From NCBI GenBank assembly GCA_937873695.1, contig CALMYL010000007.1, positions 186,001 to 250,000 of the forward strand: DNA of 64,000 nt, read 5' to 3'. A program made the position numbers and the translations under genes. This document shows, in pieces, positions 24,141 through 56,790 of the stretch (position 1 is its first letter; the number at the start of each line of letters is the position of its first letter). The stretch comes from an uncultured Ignavibacteria bacterium (GTDB taxonomy: Bacteria; Bacteroidota; Ignavibacteria; Tepidaquicellales; OLB5). The notes beneath the pieces were generated by a model. That model was not told the DNA's origin and searched no databases. It saw nothing but the letters and a program-made list of their open reading frames with translations.

Positions 24141-24443
24141 TTGCCAAAGCTATATGAATATTTGGGAATTATTGTATTGTTCTATTCAAACGAGCATACT
24201 CCAATACATGTTCACGGAAATTATCAGGGATCTGAATGCAGGGCAGAAATAATTGTAGTAGATGGCAGGATCGTTAAGATAATTTTTAAAAGAGTTAAAG
24301 GAAGAAAGCAATTACCGGCTTCAAAGTTGTCTGCATTTAAGAAACTGGTTAATAAATACTCAGAAGATATTGTTAAAAAATGGGTGGATTATTTTGTTTA
24401 TAATAAACCAATAAAACCCAAAAGAATAACAAAAGTAATCTAA
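24141..24443 (+). CDS. DUF4160 protein
   Basis: A 100-residue protein starting with TTG, which fits the conserved family N-terminus (LYEYLGIIVLFYSNEHTPIHVHGNY). That segment, with the paired His of IHVHG, is the DUF4160 hallmark. A basic C-terminus follows (KRVKGRKQLPASKL ... KPIKPKRI). DUF4160 genes are commonly paired with DUF2442, as here (next gene 3 bases on), and the pair is often discussed as a toxin-antitoxin-like module; function is not established. It is inserted between infB and rbfA, nine bases after infB. Confidence 0.82.
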   Translation: MPKLYEYLGIIVLFYSNEHTPIHVHGNYQGSECRAEIIVVDGRIVKIIFKRVKGRKQLPASKLSAFKKLVNKYSEDIVKKWVDYFVYNKPIKPKRITKVI

Positions 24444-24446
24444 ACA

Positions 24447-24707
24447 ATGGCTGTTAAAGAAGAAATAATAGAGATAAAATCTGCAATTTATCTAAAAGAC
24501 TACCAGTTGAAATTGTTATTCAATGATGGCAAAAGCAGAACGGTAGATTTCGGTGATTTTCTAAAGAAATCGCATAATCCGATGACAAAGAAGTTCCTTA
24601 AGAAAACTCTGTTTCAGGATTACACAATTAAATACGGCGATCTGGTTTGGGGTGATTATGAAATGTGTTTCCCAATTTGGGATCTATATGAGGGCAAGAT
24701 TTCGTAA
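24447..24707 (+). CDS. DUF2442 protein
   Basis: An 86-residue protein with the DUF2442 beta-rich pattern: AIYLKDYQLKLLFNDGKSRTVDFGDFL, then FLKKTLFQDYTIKYGDLVWGDYEMCFPIWDLYEG. It directly follows DUF4160 and completes the usual pair. A second DUF2442 gene is found at 31001. Small-protein modules of this sort are often of mobile origin; here the pair interrupts the conserved infB-rbfA junction. Confidence 0.82.
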   Translation: MAVKEEIIEIKSAIYLKDYQLKLLFNDGKSRTVDFGDFLKKSHNPMTKKFLKKTLFQDYTIKYGDLVWGDYEMCFPIWDLYEGKIS

Positions 24708-25891: not shown

Positions 25892-26848
25892 ATGAACGTA
25901 TACAGGGATATAAAAGAAGTATCATTTGATAAGAAAACGGCGGTAACAATTGGCACATATGACGGGCTTCACCTTGCCCACAGGCAGATAGTGAATAAAG
26001 TAACATCACTTGCTAAGGAAAAAGGGCTTCGTTCTTTTATAGTAACATTCGAGCCTCATCCGCAGGAAGTTTTGAAGAACAAGACTCCCGATATTAAACT
26101 ACTGACTGCAATTGATGAAAAGCTGAGACTTTTTGAAACTGCCGGAATTGAAAATGTGCTGGTGATCAAATTCACAGAGGAGTTTTCCAAAACCGACGCG
26201 AGAGAATTCTATAAGGATTATATAGCAGGCAGTATAGGTTTAAGCGATCTTGTAATAGGATATGACCATCTTTTTGGCAGGAACCGCGAAGGCAGCATTG
26301 AGACATTAAAATCATTGGCCGGCGAATTTGGTTTTGAAATACACCGCGTTGATGAAATTGATGTTGATGGCAGACCGGTAAGCTCAACCCGAATAAGGCA
26401 TGCGCTGGCTGAGGGCAACATTGAAGAAGCCAACAAACTGCTGGGATATGAATACGGATTTGACGGTGTGGTTGTGGAAGGCGATAAAGTTGGCAGAACA
26501 ATTGGGTATCCTACGGTTAACTTAAAGCCGGTTAAAGAAAACAAAGTAATGCCCAAAGAAGGTATTTACTGCGTAAGGGTTATACATAATAATACAGAGT
26601 ATTACGGAATGATGTATCACGGTTTCCGGCCTACTTTGAGCGAAGGCATAAAACGCGCTCTTGAGGTGCATATATTTGATTTCGATAAAACGGTATATGG
26701 CGAAAAGATAACAATAAGTTTTCTGGTAAGGCTGCGCGGCGATAAAAAATTCTCAGGTAAAGAAGAACTTATAGCGCAGATAGATAAAGATAAAGAAGAT
26801 TCACTGAATTACATAAACGAATTAAGAAAAAATAAAATTAAACAATAA
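25892..26848 (+). CDS. ribF: Bifunctional riboflavin kinase / FAD synthetase
   Basis: A 318-residue enzyme making FMN and FAD. The N-terminal nucleotidyltransferase part has TIGTYDGLHLAHRQIV (~15-30, the HxxH-like site), FEPHPQEVL, and VIGYDHLFGRNREGS; SSTRIRHALAEGNIEEANKLLG links to the C-terminal flavokinase, which carries GRTIGYPTVNL (~203-213) and the GIYCVRV core. Order and length are as expected for RibF. It starts directly after truB and precedes rpsO by 27 bases. No FMN riboswitch is present. Confidence 0.96.
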   Translation: MNVYRDIKEVSFDKKTAVTIGTYDGLHLAHRQIVNKVTSLAKEKGLRSFIVTFEPHPQEVLKNKTPDIKLLTAIDEKLRLFETAGIENVLVIKFTEEFSKTDAREFYKDYIAGSIGLSDLVIGYDHLFGRNREGSIETLKSLAGEFGFEIHRVDEIDVDGRPVSSTRIRHALAEGNIEEANKLLGYEYGFDGVVVEGDKVGRTIGYPTVNLKPVKENKVMPKEGIYCVRVIHNNTEYYGMMYHGFRPTLSEGIKRALEVHIFDFDKTVYGEKITISFLVRLRGDKKFSGKEELIAQIDKDKEDSLNYINELRKNKIKQ

Positions 26849-26875
26849 ATAATAATTTAAGGAGCAAAACCAAAG

Positions 26876-27145
26876 ATGTTAACCAAAGAAGCAAAGCAGG
26901 AGATCGTAACAAAGTACGGAGCAAATGCGAAAGATTCAGGCAAAACCGAAGTTCAGATAGCTATTTTAACAACAAGAATTAACACACTTACCGAAAGCCA
27001 TTTTAATACAAAGAAAAAAGATAACCACTCAAGGCTGGGACTCTTAAAAATGGTTGGTAAAAGAAGAAGACTGTTAAAATACCTGGAAAACAAAGATATC
27101 AACAGGTACAGGGCAATAATCAAAGAATTAAATATAAGAAAATAA
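26876..27145 (+). CDS. rpsO: 30S ribosomal protein S15
   Basis: An 89-residue S15, which binds 16S rRNA. Motifs: [50 protein letters not shown] (split over ~43-72), ending with [13 protein letters not shown] Shine-Dalgarno-like AAGGAG lies before the ATG. The rpsO-pnp order is conserved; the 196-base gap to pnp is highly structured. Confidence 0.97.
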
Positions 27146-27153
27146 TTTCATAC

Positions 27154-27309
27154 GGGCTGTTATAAGCAAAAGCGGTTATTCTGTAAAAACAGGGCGACGA
27201 AATAAAGTTCGTGCATCATTGGTTCCCGGGCTGTATTTCGCCATCCTGCTTTAGGCATAATAGGTATATTGTGTTAAAACAGAGTAACTCCTTGAATGCA
27301 TAACAGCCC
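27154..27309 (+). ncRNA. Nested-stem leader RNA upstream of pnp (candidate autoregulatory element)
   Basis: Three nested pairings: a perfect 10-base closing stem GGGCTGTTAT (27154-27163) / ATAACAGCCC (27300-27309); a middle stem 27172-27183 with 27280-27291 (9 of 12 identical to the reverse complement); and an inner stem 27190-27204 with 27234-27248 (12 of 15). They lie between rpsO and pnp, ending 32 bases before the pnp ATG, and 3' of the closing stem is the ribosome-binding site AAGGAG. In E. coli the pnp leader forms a long stem cleaved by RNase III for PNPase autoregulation; by analogy this could do the same. Structure is read from the sequence; regulation is inference. Confidence 0.55.
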
Positions 27310-27341
27310 TTAATTAATTTAAGGAGATAAAAAAAACAAAC

Positions 27342-29483
27342 ATGGTAACAGTAAAAGAAATGGATCTTGGCGGAAGAACGCTGAGACTTGAAACAGGCAA
27401 ACTTGCCAAACAGGCAAGCGGTTCTGTGCTTGCAAGGTACGGCGATACAGTAGTGCTTTGCACAGTAGTAGGAGCTGATGAGCCTAAAGAAGGAATGGAT
27501 TACTTTCCTCTCCAGGTTGAGTTCCGCGAAAAAACTGCGGCTGTCGGAAAAATTCCCGGCGGCTTTTTTAAACGCGAAGCCAGACCAAGCGAAAAAGAAA
27601 TTTTAACAGCAAGGCTTATTGATAGGCCGATAAGACCGCTTTTCCCTGAGGAATTTATGTGCGAAGTGCAGGTTATATGTACAGTGTACTCAAGCGACCA
27701 GGAAAACGACGCAGATGTAATTGCAGCCGTAGGCGCATCAGCTGCGCTGATGGTATCAAACCTTCCGTTCGAAGGTCCGATGGGTGAAGTAAGGGTCGGC
27801 AGAGTGAACGGTGAGTATATCGTTAATCCTACCCACACCCAGCTTAAAGATAGCGATATGGATATGGTTATCGGCGGAACGACTGATTCAATTGTAATGG
27901 TTGAAGGCGATGCTAAGGAATTAAGCGAAGCCGACATACTTGGCGCAATTAAATTTGCCCATGAGAACATCAAGAAGATATGCGCAATGCAAACGGAGTT
28001 TGCGGCTGAGCGTAACGTCACAAACCGCGAAGTTAAAGCGGCTGAATATGACCAGGAGCTTAAGAATGCTGTGAAAGAACTTGCAGCAAAAACTATCAGC
28101 GAAATTCACAGAAGTGATGTAACCAAGGATGAAAGAAGCCAGAAGTATAAAGAGCTTTATGAATCTATTACCGAAAGCTTAAAGGAAAAATTCCCCGAGC
28201 AGGATAAAATAATTGCAAAGCATTTTGATGATATCCAGTATTACGATATGAGAGAAATGATACTTACCGAAGGCAGAAGGCTTGACGGAAGGAAAACAAC
28301 TGAAATAAGACCTATAACATGTGAAGTTGGATATTTGCCGCGCAATCACGGTTCAGCTTTGTTTACACGCGGAGAAACGCAGAGCTTAACCTCCATGACG
28401 CTTGGCACAAAAAGTGACCAGCAGATAATTGACGGATTAATGCCCGAAGATAAGAAGCGGTTCATGCTTCATTATAACTTCCCGCCGTTTTCAACCGGTG
28501 AAACCGGAAGGTACGGCTCAACAGGCAGAAGAGAGATCGGTCATGGTCATTTAGCCGAAAGGTCACTCGAAGGAATGCTTCCTTCGGAGGAAGAATTCCC
28601 GTATACAATCCGTATAGTAAGCGATATTCTTGAATCAAACGGTTCTTCATCAATGGCTACTGTTTGCGCAGGCACGCTTGCGCTGATGGATGGCGGCGTT
28701 GGTATTAAGCGCCCGGTTGCGGGTATTGCAATGGGACTTATAAAAGAGGGCGAGAGAGTCGCGGTGTTAAGCGATATATTAGGTAACGAAGATTTCCTTG
28801 GTGATATGGATTTCAAGGTTTGCGGAACATCAGAAGGTATTACAGGACTGCAGATGGATATTAAAATAAAAGGCGTATCATTTGAAATTATGGAAACTGC
28901 TTTGGCACAGGCAAAAGAAGGCAGAATGCATATTCTTGGTATTATGAAGGAAGCTATTTCAGAGCCAAGGGCTAAGATATCTGATTACGCTCCGCATCTT
29001 TATACAATGACAGTGCCTGTTGATATGATAGGCGCGGTTATAGGACCGGGCGGAAAAAATATCAGGCATATCATTGAAATGTCAGGTGCTGAAATTAATA
29101 TTGATGATGACGGAACAGTGGTAATCGCGGCGCTCTCGGGTGAATCAGCAAGCATCGCTCAGTCAATGATTGCCAAGATAACCGAAGTACCCGAAAAAGG
29201 AAAGACCTACAACGGCAAAGTTGTAAAGACAACCGATTTCGGCGCATTTGTAGAAATACTGCCGGGCAAAGAAGGTTTGCTGCATATTTCGCAAATTGAT
29301 AAGAAGCGTGTTGCCAAGGTTGAAGATGTGTTAAAACGCGGTGATATGATAACCGTTAAGGTTCTTGAAATCGACAGCAAGACCGGAAAGGTATCACTTA
29401 GCCATAAAGCAGTGATGGAAGATGAAGAAAAAGCCTCTAAGGGAGTAACTGAAGAAGCTAAGACGGAAGAAAAACCGGCTTAA
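27342..29483 (+). CDS. pnp: Polynucleotide phosphorylase
   Basis: A 713-residue 3'-5' exoribonuclease using phosphate. It has two RNase PH domains (first with GDTVVLCTVVG and FFKREARPSEKEIL; second with GRRLDGRKTTEIRPI, RGETQSLTSMTLGT and FPPFSTGETG), a linker helix domain, a KH domain (GAVIGPGGKNIRHI, ~563-576) and an S1 domain (GKVVKTTDFGAFVEILPGKEG, in ~625-645). A short charged C-terminal tail follows. It acts in RNA decay, often with RNase E- or helicase-containing complexes. A strong terminator lies 40 bases downstream. Confidence 0.97.
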   Translation: MVTVKEMDLGGRTLRLETGKLAKQASGSVLARYGDTVVLCTVVGADEPKEGMDYFPLQVEFREKTAAVGKIPGGFFKREARPSEKEILTARLIDRPIRPLFPEEFMCEVQVICTVYSSDQENDADVIAAVGASAALMVSNLPFEGPMGEVRVGRVNGEYIVNPTHTQLKDSDMDMVIGGTTDSIVMVEGDAKELSEADILGAIKFAHENIKKICAMQTEFAAERNVTNREVKAAEYDQELKNAVKELAAKTISEIHRSDVTKDERSQKYKELYESITESLKEKFPEQDKIIAKHFDDIQYYDMREMILTEGRRLDGRKTTEIRPITCEVGYLPRNHGSALFTRGETQSLTSMTLGTKSDQQIIDGLMPEDKKRFMLHYNFPPFSTGETGRYGSTGRREIGHGHLAERSLEGMLPSEEEFPYTIRIVSDILESNGSSSMATVCAGTLALMDGGVGIKRPVAGIAMGLIKEGERVAVLSDILGNEDFLGDMDFKVCGTSEGITGLQMDIKIKGVSFEIMETALAQAKEGRMHILGIMKEAISEPRAKISDYAPHLYTMTVPVDMIGAVIGPGGKNIRHIIEMSGAEINIDDDGTVVIAALSGESASIAQSMIAKITEVPEKGKTYNGKVVKTTDFGAFVEILPGKEGLLHISQIDKKRVAKVEDVLKRGDMITVKVLEIDSKTGKVSLSHKAVMEDEEKASKGVTEEAKTEEKPA

Positions 29484-30828: not shown

Positions 30829-31000
30829 GCAAGAGAATTGTTTGTGTAAATTATTGATATATAGTGAATTAATTTATATTTTGTAGCAGTGCACATTTTC
30901 TGCATACATTTGATTGCAAATTGTAAACCATTTTATATTAATTAAATTGTATATAATTTGATAAGTGTCCGAAACTTTAAGATTCTATTATTCCATTAAA

Positions 31001-31264
31001 ATGATATATTTAATTAAAGAAATAGTTTCAGCAGAACCATATAAACTAAAACTTAAGTTCAATACCGGTGAAATAAAACTTATTGATCTTGAGCACAAAC
31101 TGCTTGAATGGTCCAAAACCCCTGATAGTAAATTTAAGAAATTGTTAGAACCTGAATATTTTGTTACTGTAAAATATAATGATGAAATAGAATCTGTTTA
31201 TTGGGATAACGGTATCGACCTCTCGCCGAATGTTTTATATGATATGGATTTAATAGAAGCATAA
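31001..31264 (+). CDS. DUF2442 protein (second copy)
   Basis: An 87-residue protein from the ATG at 31001; a GTG at 30965 would add 12 residues. It shows the DUF2442 pattern: IYLIKEIVSAEPYKLKLKFNTG, IKLIDLEHKLLEW, then FVTVKYNDEIESVYWDNGIDLSPNVLYD in two parts. No DUF4160 partner is adjacent, unlike the pair at 24.1 kb, so it may be a solitary remnant. It is divergent from the HTH/EcsC genes across a 252-base region holding the inverted repeat. Confidence 0.78.
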   Translation: MIYLIKEIVSAEPYKLKLKFNTGEIKLIDLEHKLLEWSKTPDSKFKKLLEPEYFVTVKYNDEIESVYWDNGIDLSPNVLYDMDLIEA

Positions 31265-55218: not shown

Positions 55219-56790
55219 TCATTTACGGCTGATTATTTTTTCGGCGGCAAGTTTGCCGGAAAGTATTACAAGCGGTATACCTCCGCCCGGATGGGCTGAG
55301 CCGCCAGTGAAGTAAAGGCCTTTATATTGTTTTGAGCCATTTGGCTGACGCAAAAATGCCGCATTCCGGCTGTTGGATGATATTCCGTATATGCTGCCGC
55401 TGTAGCTTCCGGTTTCTTCTTCAATATCCTGCGGCGTCATTATGGATTCGGTTTCTATTTTATCTTTTATATCATACCCGGTTAAAGCTTTTATTTTAGC
55501 GAGGATTGTTTCTTTGATTTCATTAAGACCCCCTTCCCGCTGAGGCGGGACAAGCTGTCCGGCAAAGCCGGACACTCCCCACCGAGAGACCGGTTCTTTG
55601 ACTCGGTAAGGGGGAGACATGAATTGGGGATTTGAGCTTGTGCTGTTTGGAGCATTTATCATCACAAACCAGTTCTCTTTACCCGGGGGCGCATCAGCCG
55701 GTGAAAATTTAGAGGAGACGTAAATGTAAATTGTGGGATCAGTCGGATATACTTTTTTATCAAAGAGTTCTTCAAATTCCTTTTTGTAATCAGCGGAAAA
55801 CAAAATATTGTGTGTATCCAGTTTTTGTGATGTTAGGTTAACGCCCCAGTAGAACACAAGAGCTGATGAAGAGGGCTCGAGTTTGTTATATTTTTTCGCG
55901 GCGGAGCTTTTGTTATCATTTAACAATTTGCCGTATGTTGAATACACATCAGCATTGGAGATCACTGCATCACTTAATATTTCTTTACCGCCGGTGAGAA
56001 TTCCTTTAACATTTTTTCCATCCGTAATAATTTTTTCAACGGGTGAATTGAAACAAAATTTTACGCCTTTTTTTATGGCGAGCTTGTACAGCGCATCTGT
56101 TAATGAGAACATTCCGCCTGAAGCGTAATATCCGCCAATAGTATATTCAACATGAGAGATGATGTTTAATGTTGCGGGGCATTTGTAGGGGTCACTGCCG
56201 TTATATGTGGCGTAGCGGTTAAAAAGCTGAATTATTTTTTCATCTTTAAAGAATAAGCGGTTAGCTTCATTCATAGTGCGGAATGAATCAATTTTTGGCA
56301 GCTTAAAAAGGGTTTTAAGCGCCTTCAGGTTTGTGTAAGTCTTCGGACTGTAAAGATCTTTAAATAGAAAAATATCAGCGGTCAGCTCATAAATCGTTTT
56401 GCAGTATTCCAGATACTTATAAAGCGCTTCTTTTTTTTCGGTTGTGTTTGCTTCAATTTCAGTGACAAATTTTTCTTTATCTGAATACGCGTTTAGTATT
56501 GTTCCATCAGGGTAATAGTATCTGCAGAGGTTATCCAGTTTATTCAATGTGAGCCACTCGGCAGGGTTTTCGCCAACTGATTCGAAAAGCTCATTAATTA
56601 CAAAGGGCATTGTGATAAGCGAGGGACCCGTATCGAACCTGAATCCGTTACGTGTTATTGAGCGGGCTTTGCCGCCGGGTGTTGGATTTTTCTCGTAAAC
56701 GGTAACATCATATCCCGCATGCGCAAGTCTGATTGCTGCGGATAGTCCGCCGAGTCCTGAGCCGATGACGGCGATTGAGATGGTTTTCAT
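55219..56790 (-). CDS. CrtI-type carotenoid desaturase with an in-frame repeat insertion
   Basis: A 523-residue FAD enzyme of the phytoene desaturase family, last in the carotenoid operon. It has the dinucleotide fold VIGSGLGGLSAAIRLAHAGY (~8-27), then YEKNPTPGGKARSI and GFRFDTGPSLITMPF, and the C-terminal GLYFTGGSAHPGGGIPLVIL. Between NAPNSTSSNPQF and NEIKETILAKI is an extra ~31-residue stretch (SPPYRVKEPVSRWG... to ...PPQREGG) that is encoded by a palindromic repeat element (55528-55615) and is absent from the paralogue at 57900. It may act in further desaturation or 3,4-desaturation; which CrtI paralogue uses phytoene cannot be decided. Confidence 0.85.
   Translation of the reverse strand: MKTISIAVIGSGLGGLSAAIRLAHAGYDVTVYEKNPTPGGKARSITRNGFRFDTGPSLITMPFVINELFESVGENPAEWLTLNKLDNLCRYYYPDGTILNAYSDKEKFVTEIEANTTEKKEALYKYLEYCKTIYELTADIFLFKDLYSPKTYTNLKALKTLFKLPKIDSFRTMNEANRLFFKDEKIIQLFNRYATYNGSDPYKCPATLNIISHVEYTIGGYYASGGMFSLTDALYKLAIKKGVKFCFNSPVEKIITDGKNVKGILTGGKEILSDAVISNADVYSTYGKLLNDNKSSAAKKYNKLEPSSSALVFYWGVNLTSQKLDTHNILFSADYKKEFEELFDKKVYPTDPTIYIYVSSKFSPADAPPGKENWFVMINAPNSTSSNPQFMSPPYRVKEPVSRWGVSGFAGQLVPPQREGGLNEIKETILAKIKALTGYDIKDKIETESIMTPQDIEEETGSYSGSIYGISSNSRNAAFLRQPNGSKQYKGLYFTGGSAHPGGGIPLVILSGKLAAEKIISRK
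55528..55615 (+). repeat. Palindromic repeat element (copy C), translated inside the CrtI gene
   Basis: Four nested or adjacent stems: outer CCCCCTT (55529-55535) / AAGGGGG (55608-55614); CCCGC/GCGGG (55536-55549); perfect GTCCGGC/GCCGGAC (55557-55573); ACCGAG/CTCGGT (55581-55607). The core GCGGGACAAGCT is shared with copies at 59.4 and 62.7 kb. Confidence 0.8.

Follow-up and report, generated by a model that had tools for sequence, protein, structure and literature searches.

A conserved, structured pnp leader in one Ignavibacteria genus, with a predicted Shine-Dalgarno switch that may serve PNPase autocontrol

The window analysed here is a 64,000-nt stretch of DNA from an uncultured member of the Ignavibacteria, in which a 156-nt leader element (27154-27309) sits between rpsO and pnp. 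The element starts with GGGCUGUUAU, leaving 8 nt between the rpsO stop codon (rpsO ends at 27145) and the first stem arm, and finishes with AUAACAGCCC, from which 32 nt (27310-27341) lead to the pnp ATG at 27342. The span of 156 bases and the distance of 32 bases to the pnp start given in the initial annotation are thus correct. The features of the locus are as follows.

26876..27145, + strand: rpsO (ribosomal protein S15), the gene 5' of the element; open reading frame with Pfam Ribosomal_S15, E 3.8e-32
27154..27163, + strand: P1 5' arm, GGGCUGUUAU; leading 5 bases invariant in 13/13 genus members
27170..27184, + strand: P2 5' arm, with a Shine-Dalgarno (SD)-like AAG(A/C)GG pairing to the anti-SD; from fold and alignment
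27190..27248, + strand: P3 hairpin, whose near-invariant base (CAGGGCGACGAAA / UUUCGCCAUCCUG) includes CxA and AxC mismatches; in 13/13, distal stem covarying
27209..27229, + strand: apical part of P3, closed by a U27209.G27229 wobble; wobble invariant in 13/13, surrounding pairs covarying
27254..27275, + strand: P4 hairpin, differing among relatives in both sequence and length; predicted fold
27279..27293, + strand: P2 3' arm; from fold and alignment
27288..27293, + strand: anti-SD CUCCUU within the P2 3' arm, pairing extendable to 27297; predicted SD pairing
27300..27309, + strand: P1 3' arm, AUAACAGCCC; predicted fold
27308-27313 with 27319-27324, + strand: small SD-masking hairpin CCUUAA/UUAAGG, which may start at the last CC of the P1 3' arm; predicted
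27321..27326, + strand: pnp SD AAGGAG; GGAGA in 13/13 genus members
27342..29483, + strand: pnp (polynucleotide phosphorylase); open reading frame with Pfam RNase_PH, PNPase, KH_1 and S1 domains

The neighborhood is an otherwise ordinary translation gene cluster, within which a DUF4160/DUF2442 gene pair (24141-24707) lies between infB and rbfA (names assigned by eye); a further DUF2442 gene is found at 30965-31264.

The region 27100-27360 has a minimum free energy of -61.7 kcal/mol (z = -3.62), which was equaled by none of 200 dinucleotide shuffles, and the element by itself reaches -59.0 kcal/mol, a stability matched by 3 of the 6386 156-nt windows taken from both strands of the 64 kb at steps of 20. 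Its G+C content (0.42) is near that of the whole window (0.40). Perfect 10-bp inverted repeats 100-200 nt wide are not rare per se, as nine occur in the window, including the element's own; the significance of the element rests on the nesting of its stems and on their conservation, not on the 10-bp inverted repeat alone. Elsewhere in the window, a palindromic, strongly folding sequence (55525-55625) is located inside an open 523-aa frame on the minus strand (55219-56790), which by eye is of the phytoene desaturase type. It has four further partial copies elsewhere in the genome (approximately 47-57 nt, 85-93% identical), and possibly represents the in-frame insertion of a repeat into the gene.

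In the predicted fold, P1 and P2 are stacked and close a three-way junction with the long P3 hairpin and the P4 hairpin. The nested complementary stems of the initial annotation are therefore present, but the architecture is more than nested stems, with P3 and P4 placed side by side within P1 and P2; three features had been missed there, namely P4, the anti-SD in the 3' arm and the near-invariance of the P3 base.

We aligned the leaders of the 13 genus members. In P3, 88.9% of the cells are paired and 13 pairs are changed on both sides, giving a covariation of 0.319 versus 0.119 +/- 0.019 in shuffled alignments (0/500 as high), while slid partners reached at most 0.094. The lower 13 positions of P3 show no variation except at two positions in one sequence: the 5' strand of the base is identical in 13/13, and the 3' strand is altered in that single member, so that the CxA mismatch is kept throughout and the AxC mismatch in 12/13. 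The near-invariance of this base, with both mismatches included, points to recognition by a protein. In P1 and P2, 88.3% of the cells are paired, versus 42-55% when the arms are slid, and covariation is weak, with three pairs changed on both sides and 146/500 shuffles matching it, since the arms scarcely differ between members; at one P2 pair, some members have U-A and others A-U. Selection on the stem in relatives is thus strongly supported for P3, and P1 and P2 are conserved with weak covariation. The initial annotation had suggested looking for covariation in the rpsO-pnp regions of relatives, and the compensatory changes are indeed there, in P3. A pnp leader with a conserved RNA structure is real.

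Among the 59 genomes searched, rpsO was matched in 58, and pnp lies downstream of it in 58/58. The element is present in 13/13 genus genomes, as one copy each and exclusively between rpsO and pnp, where the gaps of 187-252 nt share a common architecture. A covariance model of P3 recovered the known site in all 13 members and gave no convincing match in the other 46 genomes; a weak match in G042 (E 0.022) was treated as chance, as the stretch reads by eye as protein-coding, and further weak matches were obtained in G024 (E 0.44) and as a second match in G001 (E 0.45). A P3-like pattern was found in 10/44 genomes of the order, every one in the genus, and the three genus members that it missed have loops longer than the pattern allows. 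The exact P3 motif occurred in nine stretches, with one match each, among approximately 85,000 species genomes, every one of them from MAGs of Ignavibacteria or Chlorobi (OLB5 among them). In the one examined member of a sister genus in the same family (L019), the gap is 177 nt and harbors a similar but diverged stem, and a U.G also seems, by eye, to lie at the same distance; in another family member (L027), the gap is 65 nt, without stable structure.

A class-wide trait was rejected, since 22/28 other order members with an rpsO match have gaps of 10-65 nt and the P3 pattern is limited to the genus. Gaps of at least 100 nt occur in 6/28 other order members and 5/15 further class members, and by eye 10 of these 11 look unrelated to the element (L047 was left out). 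Judging from these sequences, the element is confined to one genus, plus one diverged look-alike in the family, and is not Ignavibacteria-wide. Two class relatives (L062 and L063) have a long rpsO-pnp gap with a terminator-like hairpin after rpsO followed by a distinct stable hairpin, without sequence relationship to the genus element; stems in pnp leaders may have arisen repeatedly. An SD-like motif before pnp is lacking in 8/12 of the long leaders outside the genus (order and class), versus GGAGA in 13/13 genus members. The window had no Rfam match at the gathering score, which excludes a known RNA family at this cut-off, and the 14 family loci (L006-L019), searched at E up to 5, gave one chance-level match only (suhB, E 1.7, L010 1145-1188), outside the leader.

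No intrinsic terminator (stem plus T run) was found on the + strand at 26700-27400, and a terminator between rpsO and pnp was ruled out, as the stem has no T run. Nor was a promoter found on the same strand over the same range, in a scan for the sigma-70-like type. Because of these two results, rpsO and pnp are probably co-transcribed. The genome encodes RNase III (TIGR02191, 222 bits, above the cut-off), and a long double-stranded stem is present in the pnp leader 3' of rpsO, an anatomy that, as predicted, suits an RNase III substrate.

We evaluated the accessibility of the pnp SD in predicted folds at 37 °C, which include no magnesium, ribosomes or proteins. CUCCUU or CUUCUU is present in 11/13 P2 3' arms, and its partner in P2 varies more and is often mismatched. 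Over the 13 genus sequences, the mean unpaired probability of GGAG was 0.55 in the intact leader and 0.53 when P3 was cut with both strands still annealed, fell to 0.13-0.19 across four cut points when the upstream strand was removed, and rose again to 0.49 when the anti-SD was removed as well. In the window sequence, the predicted anti-SD:SD pairing probability is approximately 0.94 after loss of the 5' arm. Compared with surrogates in which the pairs are permuted and the pairing is retained, the strand-removed value was 0.127 versus 0.534 +/- 0.070 (0/60 as low) and the drop in openness was 0.418 versus 0.053 +/- 0.066 (0/60), a combined null that overstates independence because the 13 sequences are related. 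With plain dinucleotide shuffles as the control, 4/13 sequences stand out at 0.04 or below.

The closure is uneven across the genus: L017 and L018 show none beyond the null, it is weak in L012, and in L014 it varies with the cut site. In the tree, several forks of which are weakly supported, L017 falls in neither of the two main groups and L018 lies outside the group of L006, L012, L016 and relatives, so that SD closure may have disappeared on two occasions or been acquired repeatedly. Outside the genus, truncation scans of 12 leaders, four of which have an SD-like motif (L019, L020, L021 and L058), revealed the open-then-closed pattern in none; the L019 leader is structured without a predicted SD closure, and L058 stays at low openness until the last ~70 nt. 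Taken together, the structure is conserved and covarying and the predicted pairings are mutually exclusive, and an anti-SD lock governed by strand digestion has in silico support in most, not all, members.

E. coli supplies the textbook example of PNPase control by way of a cut leader, and PNPase reportedly acts there on a leader structure that is double-stranded. According to a review (PMC8708148), the E. coli transcript is cut by RNase III between rpsO and pnp, which destabilizes the pnp mRNA. The genus element resembles the E. coli leader in placing a long nested stem between rpsO and pnp on what is probably a shared mRNA, but differs from it in sequence and shape, and E. coli has a T-rich, terminator-like hairpin after rpsO, of a kind not found in the window at 26700-27400. 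In silico, the E. coli K-12 SD stays open without the 5' arm (0.58, truncations at nt 100-180), whereas the window leader is closed at truncations from nt 30 to 138 (at most 0.18, and 0.00-0.03 at most points) and reopens to approximately 0.3 at nt 144, where the anti-SD is lost. The likeness to an E. coli PNPase leader claimed in the initial annotation thus holds for the conserved, covarying pnp leader, the RNase III gene and the suitable anatomy, but not for the SD response to loss of the 5' arm, which is a comparison added here and not a literature-defined trait of the E. coli type. Judged from these folds, the signal may be like that of E. coli (strand removal by PNPase), with a different read-out. 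In E. coli K-12, the small RNA SraG is annotated antisense across the pnp leader (L076 2684-2899).

The occurrence outside Proteobacteria that was stressed in the initial annotation is not new, as several precedents show. PMC5872136 describes, in the part on pnp, an RNase III-cut hairpin in the rpsO-pnp intergenic region of Streptomyces; S. coelicolor is thus a likeness from outside Proteobacteria, and differs in having intergenic promoters and a terminator, with no anti-SD lock among the features described in that part, the comparison being one by description. RNase III repression of PNPase is also listed for B. burgdorferi, S. pyogenes and C. jejuni in the relevant section of the review (PMC8708148). 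For S. pyogenes, the section of PMC6431027 on the pnp 5' UTR has RNase III-dependent cuts and a 22-nt upstream piece thought to be duplexed with the pnp mRNA, data that suggest an E. coli-type duplex mechanism (PMC6431027); this species belongs to a distant phylum and is likened here by description. In the open-licence literature, we found no paper on an Ignavibacteria pnp leader, nor one describing a lock of this anti-SD type on the gene.

The leader is probably an autoregulatory device of pnp, as far as the modeled folds can tell. It would be made on one transcript with rpsO, and the P3/P2 stem would probably be a target of RNase III cutting. For as long as the upstream strand remains paired, the P2 3' arm and its anti-SD would be kept off the pnp ribosome-binding site and pnp would be translated. 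When PNPase is abundant, it would digest the upstream strand from the new 3' end, and the CUCCUU thus released would pair with AAGGAG and turn translation off, a role that the small CC...GG hairpin would take in a few species, with the net effect that PNPase restrains its own production. We hold this cis-acting sequence of RNase III cut, strand digestion by PNPase and anti-SD shut-off, by which PNPase would limit its own synthesis, to stand at even chances. A more specific form of it, which we put forward tentatively and rate below an even chance, is that the leader reads exonuclease activity, with the annealed upstream strand as the input, the competition among the SD mimic in the 5' arm, the anti-SD and the true SD as the output, and the P3 base as a docking site for the cutting enzyme or PNPase.

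The conserved P3 base also bears on a different reading, in which S15, PNPase or another RNA-binding protein recognizes the base and the junction and controls pnp translation without RNase III cutting. The kept sequence of the base, including CxA/AxC in 12/13 (5' strand 13/13), goes beyond what an ordinary double-strand nuclease would be expected to require, and an invariant U.G wobble lies within an otherwise covarying P3 stem. S15 binds three-way junctions with a G.U motif, and the leader has a predicted three-way junction and the invariant U.G in P3, the comparison being one by presence of the two parts. In E. coli, PNPase is also said to repress pnp translationally, independently of RNase III, which would favor a leader of the binding type. 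However, the S15 leaders that we know of precede rpsO, and none follows it, a placement that speaks against S15, and the anti-SD arrangement is a better fit to strand removal than to simple binding. We consider control by binding unlikely, though worth keeping in mind.

A cut in the stem might instead only process the transcript, separating rpsO from pnp, protecting the mRNA ends and fixing a ratio without feedback; the location between two genes needing different output, the long double strand and the lack of a terminator between rpsO and pnp would all agree with it. Such an element leaves the conserved anti-SD, the closure that follows removal of the 5' strand and the near-invariant P3 base unexplained, and we rate it as rather improbable. 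PNPase is a cold-shock protein in several bacteria and two exclusive folds are predicted in the leader, as would be expected of a temperature sensor that refolds in the cold so that PNPase is made; the intact fold is, however, very stable in the 37 °C prediction and the modeled switch is driven by strand removal, not temperature, making a sensor highly improbable. Finally, chance or a decaying mobile palindrome without a role is scarcely credible, even though the same genome has the dispersed palindromic repeat at 55525-55625 with its four further partial copies, since the element is in a fixed position in 13/13 with a near-invariant core. A chance origin of P3 is contradicted by its strong covariation, and a dispersed repeat by the single copy; the sole extra high-scoring match to the P3 model is the same site on the opposite strand (G006).

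That RNase III controls pnp beyond Proteobacteria has been reported before; what would be new here is the anti-SD CUCCUU in the P2 3' arm with its predicted on/off step. The near-invariant, mismatched helix at the base of P3 is a candidate for sequence-specific recognition within double-stranded RNA, which is uncommon. That a genus of uncultured Ignavibacteria has an unrelated RNA in this position suggests that the same control problem has been solved again, with a more explicit switch: if PNPase autocontrol through the anti-SD lock is true, the mRNA would itself signal whether the strand upstream had been eaten.
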